This document shows, in pieces, positions 12,650-28,022 of a stretch of 64,000 nt of DNA (position 1 is its first letter; every line of letters starts with the position of its first letter). Both the position numbers and the translations under genes were made by a program. Source of the DNA: Sphingomonas jeddahensis (lineage in GTDB: Bacteria > Pseudomonadota > Alphaproteobacteria > Sphingomonadales > Sphingomonadaceae); assembly GCF_001981525.1 (NCBI RefSeq), contig NZ_MPSB01000001.1, positions 124,001 to 188,000 of the forward strand, given 5' to 3'. Under the pieces are notes generated by a model. It made no database searches and had not been told where the DNA came from. It saw nothing but the letters and a program-made list of their open reading frames with translations.

Positions 12650-14173
12650 ATGTTCGACAGTCTGAGCGATCGTCTTGGTGGCGTGTTCGATCGCCTGCGC
12701 GGTCGCGGTGCGCTGACCGAAGCGGACGTGCGTCAAGCGATGCGCGAGGTGCGGATCGCGCTGCTTGAAGCGGACGTCGCGCTGCCTGTCGCGCGGCAGT
12801 TCGTCGATGAGGCTACCGAAAAGGCGATCGGGCAGAATGTGCTCCGCTCGGTCACGCCGGGGCAGCAGGTCGTCAAGATCGTCAATGACGCGCTTGTGGC
12901 GATGCTGGGCGGCGATGATCCCGCCGCGGCCGAGCTGAACCTCGGCGTCTCGCCGCCCGCGGTGGTGATGATGGTCGGCCTGCAGGGCTCCGGCAAGACG
13001 ACCACGACGGCAAAGATCGCCAAGCGGCTGTCCGGCGGGCAGGGCGGTCGGGACCGCAAGAAGGTCCTGATGGCGTCGCTCGATGTCAATCGCCCGGCCG
13101 CGCAGGAACAGCTCGCGACGCTAGGCACGCAGGTGGAGGTGCAGACGCTGCCGATCGTCGCCGGGCAGCAGCCGGTGGAGATCGCGCGGCGCGCGTTGCA
13201 GGCGGCGAAGCTGCAGGGTTTCGACGTGCTGATGCTCGACACCGCGGGTCGCCTGCACGTCGATCAGGCGCTGATGGACGAGATGAAGGCGGTGGCGGAT
13301 ATCGCCACGCCGCAGGAAATCCTGCTCGTCGTCGATTCGCTGACCGGCCAGGACGCGGTCAACGTCGCGCAGAGCTTCTCCGAGCAGGTTCCGCTGACCG
13401 GCGTGGTGCTGACCCGGATGGACGGCGATGCGCGTGGTGGTGCGGCGCTCTCGATGCGCGCCGTCACAGGCAAGCCGATCAAGTTCGCCGGGGTGGGCGA
13501 GAAGATGGACGCGCTGGAAGCGTTCCATGCCGAGCGCGTCGCCGGCCGGATCCTCGGCATGGGCGACGTCGTCAGCCTGGTCGAGCGCGCGGCGGAATCG
13601 ATCCAGCAGGAAGACGCCGAGCGCATGGCGGCGAAGCTGGCCAAGGGCCAGTTCGACATGGACGACTTACGCGGGCAGCTGGCGCAGATGCGCCGCATGG
13701 GCGGGCTGGGCGCGCTTGCGGGCATGATCCCGGGCATGAAGAAGGCCCAACAGGCGATGGCCAATGGCGCCGTCGACGAGCGCATCCTGCTGCGCATGGA
13801 CGCGATGATCACGTCCATGACCCAGAAGGAGCGCTCCAAGCCCGAGCTGATCAACGCCAAGCGCAAGATCCGCATCGCCAAGGGCAGCGGCACGACCGTG
13901 CAGGACGTGAACAAGCTGCTGAAGATGCACCAGGAAATGTCCACCGCGATGAAGAAGATCCGCAAGATGGGCGGCATCAAGGGGATGCTGTCCATGCTTG
14001 GCAAGGGCGGGCCGGGCGGCGGCATGGCTGGGATCGGCAATGCACTGGGCGGGCCCGAGCTTGGCGACATGCTGGGCAAGGCTGGCGGCGGTCTGCCGGG
14101 CCTGCCTGGCGGTCTCGGCGGGCTTGGGGGCGGCGGTGCGCTGCCGCCAGGATTTCCGAAGTTCAAGAAGTAA
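12650..14173 (+). CDS. ffh: Signal recognition particle protein Ffh
   Basis: A 507-residue SRP54-type GTPase that binds 4.5S RNA and N-terminal signal or transmembrane segments and delivers ribosomes to FtsY and SecYEG. The N domain is at 1-95. The G domain has GLQGSGKT at 110-117 and DTAGR. The methionine-rich M domain follows (MRRMGGLGALAGMIPGMKK; then SGTTVQDVNKLLKMH). A Gly/Leu/Pro-rich tail of about 60 residues ends at LPPGFPKFKK. The ATG at 12650 is preceded by AGGAAGGGAG. rpsP lies downstream across a repeat. Confidence 0.98.
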   Translation: MFDSLSDRLGGVFDRLRGRGALTEADVRQAMREVRIALLEADVALPVARQFVDEATEKAIGQNVLRSVTPGQQVVKIVNDALVAMLGGDDPAAAELNLGVSPPAVVMMVGLQGSGKTTTTAKIAKRLSGGQGGRDRKKVLMASLDVNRPAAQEQLATLGTQVEVQTLPIVAGQQPVEIARRALQAAKLQGFDVLMLDTAGRLHVDQALMDEMKAVADIATPQEILLVVDSLTGQDAVNVAQSFSEQVPLTGVVLTRMDGDARGGAALSMRAVTGKPIKFAGVGEKMDALEAFHAERVAGRILGMGDVVSLVERAAESIQQEDAERMAAKLAKGQFDMDDLRGQLAQMRRMGGLGALAGMIPGMKKAQQAMANGAVDERILLRMDAMITSMTQKERSKPELINAKRKIRIAKGSGTTVQDVNKLLKMHQEMSTAMKKIRKMGGIKGMLSMLGKGGPGGGMAGIGNALGGPELGDMLGKAGGGLPGLPGGLGGLGGGGALPPGFPKFKK

Positions 14174-14190
14174 CGAACACCGCCTTTGTC

Positions 14191-14273
14191 CGTCACCCCA
14201 GCGAAGGCTGGGGTCTCCGGCGGCGAGGGCACGAACGACAACCAAGAGATCCCAGCCTTTGCTGGGATGACGA
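14191..14273. repeat. Dispersed inverted repeat between ffh and rpsP
   Basis: Left arm CGTCACCCCAGCGAAGGCTG with GGGTCTCCGG; right arm GAGATCCCAGCCTTTGCTGG with GATGACGAA. It is a variant of the GTCACCCC/GGGTGAC class with a GCGAAGGC core. It fills the gap inside the ffh-rpsP transcription unit. Confidence 0.85.
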
Positions 14274-14297
14274 ATTTAGAAGGCAAGGAAGACTAAA

Positions 14298-14708
14298 ATG
14301 GCACTGAGCATTCGTCTGTCGCGTGGCGGCTCCAAGAAGCGTCCTTACTACCGCATCGTGGTGGCGGACGCGCGCAGCCCGCGTGACGGCAAGTTCATCG
14401 AGAAGATCGGCAACTACAACCCGCTGCTCGCCAAGGACGATGAGAAGCGCATCGTGCTCGACGCTGAGCGTGCCAAGCACTGGCTGAGCAACGGTGCGCA
14501 GCCGACCGATCGTGTCGCGCGCTTCCTCGACCTCGCCGGCGTTCGTGAGCGCGCCGCGCGTAACAACCCGAAGAAGGCTGAGCCGGGTGAGAAGGCCAAG
14601 GAGCGCGCCGAAGAGCGTGCCGAGAAGCAGAAGGCCGCCGAGGAAGCCGCCGCCGAGGCGAATGCGGCACCGGCCGAGACCGAAACCGCTGAAGCGTCCG
14701 CCGAGTAA
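14298..14708 (+). CDS. rpsP: 30S ribosomal protein S16
   Basis: 136 residues. The first about 80 residues are the S16 fold ([38 protein letters not shown]). The C-terminal 55 residues are a charged Lys/Glu/Ala-rich extension, longer than the roughly 82-residue E. coli protein but common in alphaproteobacteria. The gene has the usual position before rimM, although trmD and rplS are not adjacent here. SD-like AAGGAAG lies upstream of the ATG. Confidence 0.98.
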
Positions 14709-14717
14709 CAGGCATCC

Positions 14718-14771
14718 GATCGGGTCATGGCGCGTTGCTCCTGATGTAAGAGGAGCATGCCATGACCGATC
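14718..14771 (+). promoter_or_regulatory. Long hairpin that would mask the ribosome-binding site and ATG before rimM
   Basis: GATCGGGTCATGGC (14718-14731) pairs with GCCATGACCGATC (14759-14771) with one bulged G. An inner stem GCTCCT (14737-14742) pairs with AGGAGC (14751-14756), loop of 8. The right strands contain the SD AGAGGAG and the ATG at 14762, so both would be paired. It begins 10 bases after the rpsP stop. No T-run follows, so control of translation is more likely than termination. Confidence 0.65.
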
Positions 14772-14896
14772 CTGATCCCCGGACCGCCAATGATGACGAC
14801 GAAACGGTCGCCAGCAACGAAGGCGTCTCCGCGCCCGACCCAGCCGAAGGACGCGACGACGCCCCCGCCGGCGACGAAGGCTCCGCCGCCGGTTGA
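14762..14896 (+). CDS. Possible 44-codon acidic leader ORF (or displaced rimM N-terminus)
   Basis: ATG 14762 has an SD of AGAGGAG. The product is 44 residues and very acidic (MTDPDPRTANDDDETVASNE at the start). Codons are mostly GNN with A frequent at position two, as in real genes, whereas the overlapping rimM frame in the same stretch looks less gene-like. It stops at TGA 14894-14896, inside the start region of rimM. Loss of one base near 14890 would join it to the RimM domain. It may be a leader peptide, the true RimM N-terminus separated by a frameshift, or chance. Confidence 0.4.
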   Translation: MTDPDPRTANDDDETVASNEGVSAPDPAEGRDDAPAGDEGSAAG

Positions 14897-15365
14897 TGCC
14901 GGCGGGGAGGCGCACGTCGTTCTGGCGGTGATCACCGGCGCCCACGGCGTGAGCGGCGAGGTGAAGCTGAAGCTGTTCGCCGAGGAGATCGGCCCGCACC
15001 GCTCGTTCAACGGCGGGGCGCTGACGCTGAAATCCGTGCGCGGCAACATCGCGCGCTTTGCCGAGGTGGCGGATCGTACCGCTGCCGAGGCATTGCGCGG
15101 GGTAGAACTGACGGTGCCTCGCTCAGCGCTGCCGGCGCTGGAAGAGGGCGAATATTACCACACCGACCTGCTCGGGCTGGCGGTGGTGTCCGACGCAGGC
15201 GAACCGCTGGGGCAGGTCGTGGCGGTCGAGAATTTCGGCGCTGGCGACGTAGTCGAGATTGAGCGGCCGAACGGCAAGCGCTTCATGGTGCCGATGACTG
15301 AGCAGGCGGTGCCAGAATGGAGTGCCGAACGGCTCGTCGTCACGGCGGCGTTCGCGGAGATGTGA
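14790..15365 (+). CDS. rimM: Ribosome maturation factor RimM
   Basis: A 30S assembly factor that binds S19 and helps mature the 16S 3' domain. The N-terminal RimM domain starts at VVLAVITGAHGVSGEVKLKL, and the PRC-barrel follows (EGEYYHTDLLGLAVV..., ENFGAGDVVEIERPNGKRFMVPMT). The start is uncertain. The only in-frame ATGs (14790, 14793) give a proline/threonine-rich leader of about 40 residues with no good SD, while the well-placed SD serves a different frame (ATG 14762). No alternative initiation codon lies between that leader and the domain. It follows rpsP. Confidence 0.9.
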   Translation: MMTTKRSPATKASPRPTQPKDATTPPPATKAPPPVDAGGEAHVVLAVITGAHGVSGEVKLKLFAEEIGPHRSFNGGALTLKSVRGNIARFAEVADRTAAEALRGVELTVPRSALPALEEGEYYHTDLLGLAVVSDAGEPLGQVVAVENFGAGDVVEIERPNGKRFMVPMTEQAVPEWSAERLVVTAAFAEM

Positions 15366-15366
15366 T

Positions 15367-15401
15367 CGGGCTGTCCTCCCCCTCGAAGATGGGGAGGATC
15401 A
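15367..15401. repeat. Half-element of the CCTCCCC/GGGGAGG family
   Basis: GTCCTCCCCCTCGAAGATGG with GGAGGATC is a short inverted repeat in the convergent gap between rimM and the hydroxylase-like gene, similar to the TCCTCCTCCCC...GGGGAGGAG end of the element at 5341-5400. It may act as a weak bidirectional terminator. Confidence 0.55.
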
Positions 15402-15402
15402 G

Positions 15403-16272
15403 TCAGACGTCCATCTGCTTTACCGCGGCGTTCCACATCGAAATGTTGTTGCGTGCTTCCTGCACAAAGGCGGAGCGGCGCACGAAGCCGAGAAAGAACT
15501 CTGCGAACCACTTACCCGGATTGCGCAGCGGGCGTTCAAACTGGATCAGCAGGACGACGCGGGTGCCCTCCGTCTCGTTCCAGACTTCGTGATCATAGGT
15601 GTCGTCGAACACCAGGGTTTCGCCCTCGCACCAGCGGACGACGCGTCCATCGACGCGCATACGCACGTCGCCGTCACGTGGCACGATCAGGCCCAGGTGA
15701 CAGGTGATCAGCCCCTTGGACACCCCGCGATGTGCCGGGATGTGCGTGCCGGGCGCAAGGATCGAGAAAAAGGCGCTGTTGAGGCCGGGGATCTGCTCGA
15801 CGAGTGAGGCGGTCGCCGGGCAGCGCGCCGCGTTTTCATCGATGCGATAGCCATAGCCCCACAGGAAAAATGAGCGCCACATGTTGATCTGGGCGATCGA
15901 GCGGTGATCGGGCGAGATCGTCGCGAGGCTAGGCGCGGCTTCGCCCTGCAGCGCAACAGCGGTCGCTTCGTCGCGGATCGTTTCCCAATTGTCGCGCAGC
16001 GTCTGTGTCCAGGGAAAGGTGCGCACGTCGAGCACCGGATCGTTCGGCACAAGTGAGGATGAGGCAATCAGCCGATCGAAGACGCCGCGCAGATGCTTGC
16101 CGAAGCGGATGATCAGCGGACGGCCTGGCTCTGCCTTCATCTCGGCTCCTGGGGCGGGAGCACCGGATACAGCCTGAATATTCGGCACCCGCAGCGGGCG
16201 GGCACCGTCGTTATTCTGCCGTAATTGCGGCCGGTTCGGGCTGAGGGTCGTCACGTCGTCCGTCCGTTCCAT
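15403..16272 (-). CDS. Aspartyl/asparaginyl beta-hydroxylase-fold dioxygenase
   Basis: 289 residues with the Fe(II)/2-oxoglutarate dioxygenase fold of the AspH family. The predicted iron ligands are His181 (PAHRG) and His228 (TYDHEVWN), with Arg238 ten residues later binding 2-oxoglutarate. This spacing matches human AspH, which also uses two histidines without the usual acidic ligand. Bacterial members include LpxO, which hydroxylates lipid A acyl chains, but the sequence does not settle the substrate. The first about 45 residues look disordered, so the start could be further in (ATG at residue 45). It is convergent with rimM. Confidence 0.85.
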   Translation of the reverse strand: MERTDDVTTLSPNRPQLRQNNDGARPLRVPNIQAVSGAPAPGAEMKAEPGRPLIIRFGKHLRGVFDRLIASSSLVPNDPVLDVRTFPWTQTLRDNWETIRDEATAVALQGEAAPSLATISPDHRSIAQINMWRSFFLWGYGYRIDENAARCPATASLVEQIPGLNSAFFSILAPGTHIPAHRGVSKGLITCHLGLIVPRDGDVRMRVDGRVVRWCEGETLVFDDTYDHEVWNETEGTRVVLLIQFERPLRNPGKWFAEFFLGFVRRSAFVQEARNNISMWNAAVKQMDV

Positions 16273-16327
16273 CGCAAGCTGCGGTTGGCGTCCGTAGCGG
16301 GCTAAGCGACATTCGGGACCAAAACAT

Positions 16328-16356
16328 GGCGACGGCAGGGTGATCGAAAGATCGCC
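16328..16356. repeat. 29-base hairpin element, copy 2
   Basis: GGCGACGGCAGGGTG is followed by stem GGTGATC/GATCGCC with a GAAA tetraloop. It matches the copy at 5289-5317. Outer bases CATGGC (16325-16330) can also pair with GCCATG (16354-16359). It lies between the divergent hydroxylase-like and M16 peptidase genes. Confidence 0.5.
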
Positions 16357-16400
16357 ATGGGGTGTGGCGGCGGGGTGACGGGCAGGCTAGAAGCGATGGC

Positions 16401-19337
16401 ATGATCGCTTCTCCGCGCGCGCTTGCTGCGCCGTTCGCCGTCCTCTCGCTCCTCGCCATCGCTGCCGTTCCCGCGATCGGGCAACAGGCTGCGCGCAAAC
16501 CGGCCAAGGTCGCCGTCGCCAAGCCTGCGCCCGTTGCGGCGACGCAAAGCACGATCATCGATCCGGCCACGATTACCGTCGATACCGCCCCGTGGTTGTT
16601 CAAGGGATCGGACATCCCGCCCGATCCGGCATGGAACTTCGGCGCGCTGCCCAACGGTCTGCGCTATGCCGTGCGCAAGAACGGCGTGCCACCGGGGCAG
16701 GTCGCGGTGCGCGTGCGCATCGATGCGGGGTCGCTCAACGAGACCGATGAAGAGCGGGGCTATGCGCATCTGATCGAGCATCTGTCGTTCCGCGGATCGA
16801 AATATGTGCCGGACGGCGAGGCCAAGCGGGTGTGGCAGCGGTTTGGCGCGACCTTTGGCTCGGACTCCAACGCATCGACCACCCCGACGCAAACGGTTTA
16901 CAAGCTCGACCTGCCTGCCGCGACCGAGGCGAACCTGGACGAAAGCCTGAAGATTTTCGCCGGCATGATGGCGGAACCGGGCATCACCGCGCAGGGCCTT
17001 GCTGCCGAGCGGCCGGCGGTGCTCGCGGAGCAGCGCGAGGCGCCGGGGCCGCAGGTGCGGCTGTCCGATGCGCGCAACGCGCTGTTCTTCTCTGGGCAAC
17101 CGCTGGCGGACCGATCGCCGATCGGCAACGTCAAGACGCTGGAGGCGGCGACGCCGGAGAGCGTGCTGGCGTTCCACCGCCGCTGGTATCGCCCGGCGCG
17201 TACGGTGGTCATCATCTCGGGCGACATCGACCCGGCAATCGCGTCGCAGCTCGTGGTGAAGAACTTCGGTGGATGGCAGGGCACCGGCCCGAATCCGGCC
17301 GATCCCGATTTCGGCAAGCCCGATCCCAAGGGCACGCCGACCGCGACGCTCAACGAACCGTCGATCCCGCCGCTGGTGATCAGCGCGGTGCTGCGGCCGT
17401 GGACCTATCGTGATGATACGATCATCTTCAACCAGAAGCGCTTGGTGGATCTGGTGGCGATCCGGGTGATCAACCGCCGGCTGGAGAACCGGGCACGGGC
17501 AGGCGGGAGCTTCCTGCAGGCGAGCGTCGCGCTGGAGGACGTCGCCCGCTCGGCTAACGGCACCTTTGTGAGCATCCTGCCGATCGGTGACGATTGGGAA
17601 GCGGCGTTGAAGGACGTTCGCGCCGTGGTCGCTGATGCCATAGCGACGGCACCCAGCCAGGCCGAGGTGGATCGGGAAGTCGCCGAGTTCGAAGGCGCGA
17701 TGCGCAACGATGTCGAGACGGCGCGGGTCGAGGCCGGGTCGAAACAAGCGGACGACATGGTTCAAGCGCTCGATATCCGCGAAACCGTGGCGGGGCCGCA
17801 GGAATCGTACAACATCTTCCTCGACGCGAAGAAGAAGGGGATGTTCTCGGCGGCCGGCGCGTTCGAATCGACGAAGCGCGTGTTCAAGGGCGATGCCGAA
17901 CGCGCGATCGTCAACACCCGTGTCGCCGATCCCGGTGCCGCGGCGAAGCTGGCGGCCGCGCTGACCGCCGACGTATCCAACCTAGCCGGTCGCCGTGCCA
18001 GCCAAGCGAAGGTGAACTTCAAGGATCTTCCCAAGCTCGGCAAGCCTGGCACCGTCACGTCGCGCGAAGCGATTGCCGATCCCGGCATCGAGAAGGTCAC
18101 CTTCTCGAACGGCGTGCGGATGCTGATGTATCCGAATGTCTCGGAGACGGGGCGGGTGTATCTGCGCGTTCGTTTCGGCCGTGGCTATGGCGCGCTGCCG
18201 GCGGACAGGTCCACGGCGGCCTGGGCCGCGGAAAGCGCGCTGGTACAGAGCGGGATCGGCAAATGGAATCAGGGCGATCTCGACGCGCTGACCACCGGGC
18301 GGCGCATGGGTCTGAACTTCGACGTCACCGACGATGCGTTCGTGATGAACGCGATGACGACGCCGGGCGACTATGCCGACAATCTGGCGCTGATGGCGGC
18401 CAAGCTCGCGGCGCCGCGCTGGGACGCGGCGCCAGTGCTGCGCGCCAAGGCGGGGGCGCTGGCCGGCTATGCCGGGTTTGACTCCTCACCCGATGGCGTA
18501 CTGTCGCGCGACCTGGAGCGTAAGCTGCGCAACGGCGACCCCCGCTGGGGCCCGCCGACCCGCGAGGAGATCGAGGCGCTGACGCCGGAGGCATTCCGCA
18601 AGCTGTGGGAACCGCTGCTTGCCACCGGCCCGATCGAGGTGGACGTATTCGGGGACGTCAAGGCGGACGAAGCGATCGCTGCGGTGGGGCGCACCTTCGG
18701 GGCGCTGAAGCCGCGCACCGAAGCGCCGGTGGTGGCGCCAGGCGCCGCCTTCCCGGCGCACAATGATCGCCCGGTCGTGCTGACGCATGAGGGCGCCGAC
18801 ACGCAAGCGGCGGCCGTGATCGCCTGGCCGACCGGCGGGGGCAGCGCCGGCATTGCCGAAAGCCGCCGGCTCGACATCCTCGCCGCGATCTTCGGGGATC
18901 GGCTGTTCGATCGGCTGCGTTCGGTGGCGGGCGCCAGCTATAGCCCCAGCGCGGTCAGTCAATGGCCGCTTGGGCTGACGAGCGGCGGGCGCATCGTCGC
19001 GGTCGGCCAGGTCGCGCCGGACAATGTCGACCTGTTCTTCAAGCTCAGCCGCGAAATCGCCGCCGAACTGGTTTCTACCCCGGTGAGCGAGGACGAGCTT
19101 CGTCGCGCGATCGGGCCGATGATGCAGTATCTGGCGCGCGCGTCGTCGGGCAACCAGTTCTGGCTGTTGCAGGTGAGCGGCGGGGCGTATGATCCCAACC
19201 GGCTCGGCGGCGCGCGGACGCTGGTGAGTGACTATATGGAGATCACCCCGCAGACGCTGCAGGCCACTGCGGCCAAGTATCTCAGGCCCGAGAAGGACTG
19301 GACGCTGATGGTGCAGCCTAAGGCGGCGGCGAAGTAA
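16401..19337 (+). CDS. M16 family zinc metallopeptidase (exported, two-domain)
   Basis: 978 residues from ATG 16401. A signal peptide (about 1-28, ending AIGQQA) is followed by an Ala/Pro/Lys linker. The catalytic M16 domain has HLIEH (His123, His127) and the third zinc ligand in AAERPAVLAE (about Glu203), giving the inverted-zinc HxxEH-x76-E layout. A second, inactive M16 repeat fills the C-terminal half. Such proteins are pitrilysin/insulinase-like and degrade peptides in the periplasm. An in-frame ATG 13 codons upstream would put charged residues before the signal and is less likely. Confidence 0.93.
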   Translation: MIASPRALAAPFAVLSLLAIAAVPAIGQQAARKPAKVAVAKPAPVAATQSTIIDPATITVDTAPWLFKGSDIPPDPAWNFGALPNGLRYAVRKNGVPPGQVAVRVRIDAGSLNETDEERGYAHLIEHLSFRGSKYVPDGEAKRVWQRFGATFGSDSNASTTPTQTVYKLDLPAATEANLDESLKIFAGMMAEPGITAQGLAAERPAVLAEQREAPGPQVRLSDARNALFFSGQPLADRSPIGNVKTLEAATPESVLAFHRRWYRPARTVVIISGDIDPAIASQLVVKNFGGWQGTGPNPADPDFGKPDPKGTPTATLNEPSIPPLVISAVLRPWTYRDDTIIFNQKRLVDLVAIRVINRRLENRARAGGSFLQASVALEDVARSANGTFVSILPIGDDWEAALKDVRAVVADAIATAPSQAEVDREVAEFEGAMRNDVETARVEAGSKQADDMVQALDIRETVAGPQESYNIFLDAKKKGMFSAAGAFESTKRVFKGDAERAIVNTRVADPGAAAKLAAALTADVSNLAGRRASQAKVNFKDLPKLGKPGTVTSREAIADPGIEKVTFSNGVRMLMYPNVSETGRVYLRVRFGRGYGALPADRSTAAWAAESALVQSGIGKWNQGDLDALTTGRRMGLNFDVTDDAFVMNAMTTPGDYADNLALMAAKLAAPRWDAAPVLRAKAGALAGYAGFDSSPDGVLSRDLERKLRNGDPRWGPPTREEIEALTPEAFRKLWEPLLATGPIEVDVFGDVKADEAIAAVGRTFGALKPRTEAPVVAPGAAFPAHNDRPVVLTHEGADTQAAAVIAWPTGGGSAGIAESRRLDILAAIFGDRLFDRLRSVAGASYSPSAVSQWPLGLTSGGRIVAVGQVAPDNVDLFFKLSREIAAELVSTPVSEDELRRAIGPMMQYLARASSGNQFWLLQVSGGAYDPNRLGGARTLVSDYMEITPQTLQATAAKYLRPEKDWTLMVQPKAAAK

Positions 19338-27891: not shown

Positions 27892-28022
27892 TCGTCACCC
27901 CAGTCTTGAGCCGCCCTGTTCCCCGGCGAAGGCCGGGGCCCAGTCGGGGAACAATGTTGGGGGGCGCAGCGCCTGTTATCGCAGCCTTCCCAACTGGGCC
28001 CCGGCCTCCGCCGGGGAACAGG
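27892..28022. repeat. Compound dispersed repeat, half GTCACCCC arm plus GTTCCCCGG/CCGGGGAAC element
   Basis: A left GTCACCCCAGTCTTGAGCC arm runs directly into a two-armed unit: CCTGTTCCCCGGCGAAGGCC with GGGGCCCAGT, and inverted ACTGGGCCCCGGCCTCCGCC with GGGGAACAGG. This suggests insertion of one element type into another. It fills the convergent gap between asd and the acyl-CoA ligase gene. Confidence 0.85.

Follow-up and report, generated by a model that had tools for sequence, protein, structure and literature searches.

In Sphingomonas jeddahensis, the gap between rpsP and rimM carries a small gene for an acidic protein, and the Shine-Dalgarno sequence and start codon of this gene are predicted to be paired in an RNA hairpin whose 5′ arm contains a promoter-like −10 box. 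We propose that this arrangement may be a transcript-start-dependent translation switch for the small acidic protein, in which the −10 box of an internal EcfG-like, stress-type promoter would be the 5′ arm of the hairpin; we give this reading a probability of about 0.6. If it is true, a hairpin made of its own promoter insulates a chromosomal stress gene from the read-through of a highly expressed ribosomal operon, and the rpsP-rimM operon has a new regulatory input; according to a recent review, no information exists on the regulation of that operon (PMC10931766). The features are as follows, with positions in the window, i.e. the whole stretch of 64,000 nucleotides that was analysed, and with the basis of each in parentheses.

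14298-14708, forward strand: rpsP (S16), the upstream gene and the source of read-through mRNA (ORF; Pfam PF00886, E 6.6e-30)
14711-14716, forward strand: −35-like box GGCATC, with GGCAT 17 nt or GCATC 16 nt before CGTT (conservation; GGCAC-N16-CGTT in other genera)
14718-14771, forward strand: hairpin with an outer stem of 14 bp (one bulge) and an inner stem of 7 bp, over the Shine-Dalgarno sequence and ATG of the small ORF (fold, covariation, long-context stability)
14732-14736, forward strand: GCGTT with the −10-like box (CGTT, 14733-14736), in the 5′ arm of the hairpin (conserved while its pairing partners vary)
14742-14744, forward strand: predicted start of the short mRNA (placed from the −10 position)
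14749-14755, forward strand: Shine-Dalgarno sequence AGAGGAG of the small ORF (sequence; paired within the hairpin)
14762-14896, forward strand: small ORF, 44 aa, acidic (MTDPDPRTANDDDETVASNEGVSAPDPAEGRDDAPAGDEGSAAG) (conserved in relatives; purifying selection in frame)
14790-15365, forward strand: rimM, with ATG 14790/14793 inside the small ORF, +1 frame (ORF; Pfam RimM domain from residue 45)

A conserved small gene in the rpsP-rimM gap

The ATG at 14762 opens an ORF of 44 codons whose reading frame differs from that of rimM. The genus is represented by 151 genomes; rpsP was located in 149 of them, and 143 of the gaps between rpsP and rimM were fetched and read. The small ORF was present in 87 of these gaps, including that of S. 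mucosissima; it has the same frame relation to RimM in 82 of them and another one in five (G041, G088, G101, G102 and G112). Some gaps were reached by a similarity search with the spacer, which gave 11 loci (four of them also fetched independently) and six genomes drawn only in this way, all 17 with the small ORF. Among the 126 gaps reached independently of this search 70 had the small ORF, and when only gaps fetched regardless of the spacer were counted it was present in 74 of 130. The statistics below were computed on 82 of the 87 gaps; the remaining five, with the other frame relation, were recognised later and sit among the 61 'others'. The median length of these 61 is 13 nt. The consensus of the small ORF is M..DPDPRT..DD..DATNQGVSA.EPAEG.DDAP.GD.GSP..

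Selection was analysed in sister pairs of genomes, 24 in all, of which eight with more than 25 differences were excluded. In the 16 independent pairs, the small-ORF frame showed 84 synonymous changes compared with 42.1 expected (z 8.1). Over the same stretch, 29 synonymous changes were counted in the rimM frame (41.5 expected) and 32 in the third frame (47.7 expected). The synonymous excess is found in the small-ORF frame only, which indicates that the ORF is protein-coding and that the overlap is not constrained as RimM protein. Judged by these substitutions, the small ORF is a protein-coding gene under purifying selection.

The small protein had no match in NCBIfam or in the PDB, and a Pfam identity was rejected: the single match, Mfa1 (E 0.71, one of 22 members), is at chance level. 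Nine genomes from six further genera of the family also have the small ORF between rpsP and rimM. When 296 genomes of the order, a set in which the family has an unstated share, were searched with a profile, 13 matched, all in its own family. In the open-licence literature of PubMed Central, nothing was recognisable as describing the hairpin element or the small ORF. The small ORF represents a previously unrecognised conserved small-protein family.

The hairpin over the start of the small ORF

The first base of the hairpin is the tenth after the rpsP stop codon (14706-14708). The fold energy of 14718-14771 is −33 kcal/mol (z −6.2), a value equalled by none of 200 dinucleotide shuffles, and the hairpin was retained when folded in contexts of 171, 260, 400 and 703 nt. 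The sequence-only reading had claimed stems of 13 and 6 bp; the hairpin with its one bulge was found again, and the lengths are corrected to 14 and 7 bp. That AGAGGAG and the ATG at 14762 are paired, as had also been claimed, agrees with the fold and with the probabilities of being unpaired on the long mRNA (0.14 for 14750-14756, 0.001 for the ATG). Stability alone is not unique, as 19 of 7106 54-nt segments (step 9, forward strand) were equally stable.

A covariance model and an alignment were made from 47 of the 80 distinct hairpin sequences, the aligned segments being taken around GCGTT and the start codon. Nine of the 14 pairs of the outer stem had changed on both sides in this alignment, and the covariation score was 0.403 compared with 0.240 for shuffled sequences (0.403 reached by none of 500 shuffles). 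The model recovered 29 of 33 held-out loci with E up to 0.1, each in the expected position, and these 29 sequences covaried independently (0.301 versus 0.183 shuffled, 0 of 500); of five covariation measures in the held-out set, one, that of further pair types, was not above the shuffles (464 of 500 reached it), controls of this kind being inflated by kinship among the sequences. Covariation in sphingomonads, suggested earlier as a check on the hairpin, was therefore found in both the 47 and the 29 held-out sequences. It is because of this covariation, energy alone not being unique, that the hairpin is clearly more than chance, and it is conserved with covariation across Sphingomonas. G-U pairs were common in the outer stem of the 47-genome alignment, a frequency that points to a hairpin acting as RNA rather than as a DNA palindrome. 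A scan of the family with the model gave matches in three of 249 genomes including its own, a result of little weight with only 18 of the thousands of candidates per genome scored. A weak second match of the model in the same genome (L165, G000:C10:116628-116704, E 0.026) lies at the start of an ORF.

A known RNA family was rejected for the hairpin, as no curated Rfam model matches on it: a search of 13500-16500, in which ribosomal leaders were covered, gave three sub-threshold matches, all of them elsewhere. A role in RNA processing or mRNA stability, as an RNase III site or as protection of the 3′ end of rpsP mRNA, would suit a long and stable stem, and terminator-like hairpins of another kind occur, by eye, in a few gaps that lack the small ORF. 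This role is nevertheless very unlikely here, since it predicts neither the burial of the Shine-Dalgarno sequence and ATG nor the conserved GCGTT, and the sequence 3′ of the stem has no U-run. Gaps of about 75 nt without the small ORF and with a different, terminator-like hairpin (by eye) were seen at L004, L027 and L070 (G063, G049 and G048).

The start of rimM

mRNA structure is part of the control of rimM in E. coli. The sequence-only reading had taken the ATG at 14762 as the rimM start and had suggested that the hairpin could serve a control of the E. coli type. A rimM start at 14762 is ruled out by frame: this ATG is in another frame, opens its own 44-codon ORF, and selection acts in the small-ORF frame. 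The likeness to the translation control of the E. coli rpsP-rimM-trmD-rplS operon is a structured mRNA between the same two genes; the difference is that the structure here guards another gene in another frame. As the buried ATG belongs to a separate small ORF and is not that of rimM, the E. coli analogy fails to explain the hairpin.

The probable start of RimM is within the small ORF but not within the hairpin. ATG 14790 lies outside the hairpin and is roughly half unpaired in the long mRNA and in the short one, and a RimM-frame ATG inside the small ORF was present in 80 of the 82 genomes. In 68 of the 82 such an ATG lies in the middle part of the small ORF, where T/C use in the rest of the ORF would predict 30.4; the excess is only suggestive because the genomes are related. 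In the five genomes with the other frame relation, the frame of the small ORF is that of RimM itself and is closed by a stop, and a separate ATG precedes the RimM core (by eye).

The idea that the hairpin reduces RimM output relative to S16 draws on its location in the rpsP-rimM gap and on the part played by mRNA structure in E. coli, but we regard it as most improbable: the buried ATG is in the other frame and is the start codon of a small ORF under selection, the stem does not include ATG 14790, and 32 of the 143 gaps are just 8-13 nt long, too short for such a hairpin. With the RimM start probably outside, the hairpin therefore need not lower RimM; translation of the small ORF could. A gene on the opposite strand (15366-16272, Asp/Arg hydroxylase family) lies 3′ of rimM, so trmD is not directly next to rimM here.

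Promoter-like boxes in and before the hairpin

GCGTT was present at most 75 nt upstream of the small-ORF start in 81 of 82 genomes, while its 3′ partners vary; its invariance in the 47-genome alignment is partly by construction, the alignment having been cut around GCGTT. In the same alignment, the four specified bases of GCAnC were at least 90% conserved; they lie outside the stem, 15-17 nt before CGTT. GCGTT and GCAnC are conserved beyond the needs of pairing, and pairing therefore does not explain these two blocks. With the best of four spacings chosen, the −35 and −10 boxes were 16 or 17 nt apart in 67 of the 82 and 15 nt apart in 15. The −35 box starts with GCA in 66 of 82, and the following base is A in few.

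Of the 82 gaps that hold the small ORF, 66 have a −35/−10 variant pattern, as do one of the 61 others and one of 82 reversed sequences; 16 of the 82 lack it, and in 13 of the 82 it also occurs on the other strand. A second set comprised 116 loci and overlapped in part with the same genomes; here the pattern was present in 21 of 22 loci with the small ORF and in 2 of 94 without it. In eight of ten distinct loci from other genera, the small ORF is preceded by GGCAC-N16-CGTT; L261 has a weaker match and L309, with a small-ORF-like gene, lacks the promoter pattern. GGAAC- or GGCAC-N16-17-CGTT followed by a Shine-Dalgarno sequence and ATG gave 19 matches versus 0 in the control (121 genomes) and 14 versus 1 (249 genomes); GGAAC-N16-17-CGTT alone was not enriched in the genome studied here (37 matches versus 62 in the control). 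In several genera, GGCAC-N16-17-CGTT with a Shine-Dalgarno sequence and ATG stands before a ferritin-like (Dps-type) gene and before further genes that, by eye, seem stress-related (L255, L250-L252 and others), which suggests that GGCAC may be a −35 variant in this family.

The EcfG-type promoter of Sphingopyxis is given as GGAAC-N16-CGTT, with GCAAC as the other most frequent −35 and an AAC core that is almost invariant, a mismatch occurring in 3 of 79 (PMC7083833); that of S. melonis is given as GGAAC-N17-20-GTT (PMC6599016). The site described here is like these EcfG promoters in its −10 CGTT, in a spacing of about 16-17 nt and in its closeness to the start codon, and its −35 is similar (GGAAC/GCAAC there, GGCAC/GCAnC here). 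It differs in being without the AAC core, inside an operon and inside a hairpin that buries the Shine-Dalgarno sequence. At the present locus CGTT lies 17 nt from GGCAT or 16 nt from GCATC, and neither GGAAC nor GCAAC is present. Because the AAC core is absent, the promoter is called EcfG-like and is not assigned as a member of the class. A NepR domain (PF18557) was found over the cut-off at G000:C5:61854-61943, i.e. a general stress response regulator is encoded in the same genome.

Boxes without AAC are also listed in the table of the 50 most EcfG-dependent genes of S. melonis Fr1. Its entry #1462, an uncharacterised protein, has GCATC-N16-CGTT 31 nt from the gene, with a log2 value of −6.1 and a score of 7.33, below the authors' cut-off of 10; #1765 (GGATC) scores 19.2. 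The small ORF was not recognised among the 50 genes of that table, a result that bears on the question only if Fr1 has the ORF.

A strong structure with sequence-conserved blocks could also be a self-contained RNA regulator, i.e. a ligand- or protein-bound leader or a thermometer, in which GCGUU and GCAnC would be RNA recognition sites and a signal would open the hairpin. We consider this unlikely. First, the Rfam search gave no match on the hairpin. Second, the blocks stand at promoter-like spacing (15-17 nt) and recur in genera whose hairpins have other sequences. Third, opening costs near 20 kcal/mol would be far for a thermometer.

Predicted accessibility of the small-ORF start on long and short mRNAs

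In the switch that we propose, the 5′ arm of the hairpin holds the −10-like box and the 3′ arm the Shine-Dalgarno sequence and ATG of the small ORF. A read-through mRNA from rpsP, having both arms, would fold and leave the small ORF untranslated. The internal promoter (GGCAT or GCATC, 16-17 nt, CGTT) would start an mRNA near 14743, about 7 nt past CGTT, and on this short mRNA, devoid of the 5′ arm, the Shine-Dalgarno sequence and ATG would be free and the small ORF translatable. We infer that the boxes may form an active promoter read by EcfG, that the hairpin would block translation in the cell and that stress would activate the gene.

The cost of opening the small-ORF start was 21.7 kcal/mol on the long mRNA, a value matched by one of 28 Shine-Dalgarno-led starts (mechanically called ORFs of more than 100 codons in the 64-kb window), compared with 3.1 kcal/mol on the predicted short mRNA from about 14743. 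The latter was insensitive to the exact start (2.7-3.3 kcal/mol for 14741-14746), and predicted transcripts from 14740 to 14746 leave the Shine-Dalgarno sequence and ATG mostly unpaired. Over the 82 loci, the median cost was 19.4 kcal/mol (long) versus 6.0 (short); the two costs differed by more than 5 kcal/mol in 78 loci and by 5 or less in four. For 28 other EcfG-type sites, drawn from 33 pattern matches and including two that head an ORF of only nine codons, the medians were 8.6 and 7.1 kcal/mol. Only 5 of these 28 differed by more than 5 kcal/mol, so that the location of EcfG-type promoters in hairpins of this kind is unsupported as a general rule.

Nine distinct loci from other genera, where the hairpin sequences differ, had long/short costs of 13.9/6.8, 12.8/8.4, 18.9/8.1, 14.3/2.8, 15.4/5.8, 22.7/4.7, 11.3/9.5, 27.4/4.0 and 11.6/3.8 kcal/mol; a tenth row, L336, was not counted as its gap sequence is the same as that of L228. 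Seven of the nine differed by more than 5 kcal/mol, and L221 and L258 did not.

Another way to open the stem would be translational coupling, in which ribosomes finishing rpsP melt it and the output of the small protein scales with that of S16. The −10 box is at most 35 nt from the rpsP stop in 48 of the 82 genomes, as this would call for, but the distance exceeds 60 nt in 25 and 120 nt in 10. Those 25 keep a high opening cost (median 17.2 kcal/mol, lowest 7.3; median 20.2 in the other 57), and rpsP seems to be set apart from the hairpin by a repeat-like insertion in G058 (by eye). Coupling also leaves GCGTT and GCAnC unexplained; it is quite improbable for the present locus, and as a general rule coupling to rpsP translation is unlikely. 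Paired REP-like inverted repeats of the CCCCAGCGAAGGCTGGGG type were found at 14191-14272 and 27921-28016 (four matches with up to three mismatches, 0.14 expected). One such pair is directly upstream of rpsP, and in G058 the stretch from rpsP to the hairpin seems, by eye, to have an insertion of similar sequence.

The proposed switch could be extended to RimM, the choice of promoter toggling the locus between two proteins. The read-through mRNA would give RimM with the small ORF shut, and the stress-started mRNA would give the small ORF, whose ribosomes, by crossing the RimM start, would throttle 30S maturation in stress. We find this extension doubtful.

Comparable systems and a second case

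Late genes of phage T4 (I-TevI, segB, soc and e) are described with a hairpin over the ribosome-binding site and a late promoter adjoining it or inside it; the I-TevI hairpin is confined to mRNA started upstream, and mRNA from the late promoter is too short to fold and is translated (PMC2988022). The present locus is like these genes in that the ribosome-binding site is, by prediction, buried on upstream-started mRNA; an inner start past the 5′ arm, if used, would free it. It differs in that a bacterial chromosome, a stress-type promoter, a ribosomal protein operon and a conserved small acidic protein are concerned, and in that the case here is a computed one. The S16 leader of Flavobacteria is likewise a structured RNA tied to rpsP and rimM (PMC7247131); that leader is upstream of rpsP and in another phylum, and no Rfam match was obtained here.

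A second case was found in another genus (L162, G284:C6, reverse strand, hairpin 1568-1501). There, the stop codon of ald (alanine dehydrogenase) is followed after 11 nt by GGAAC-N17-CGTT in a hairpin over the Shine-Dalgarno sequence and ATG of a DUF3072 gene. A DUF2171 match (L163) was rejected as a further case because its hairpin is weak (10.3 versus 7.5 kcal/mol). At L162, the opening cost was 21.2 kcal/mol on the long and 4.0 on the short mRNA, and the position of the site directly 3′ of a co-oriented gene fits insulation from read-through. The DUF3072 gene, as a second example, suggests that the promoter-in-hairpin design may recur.
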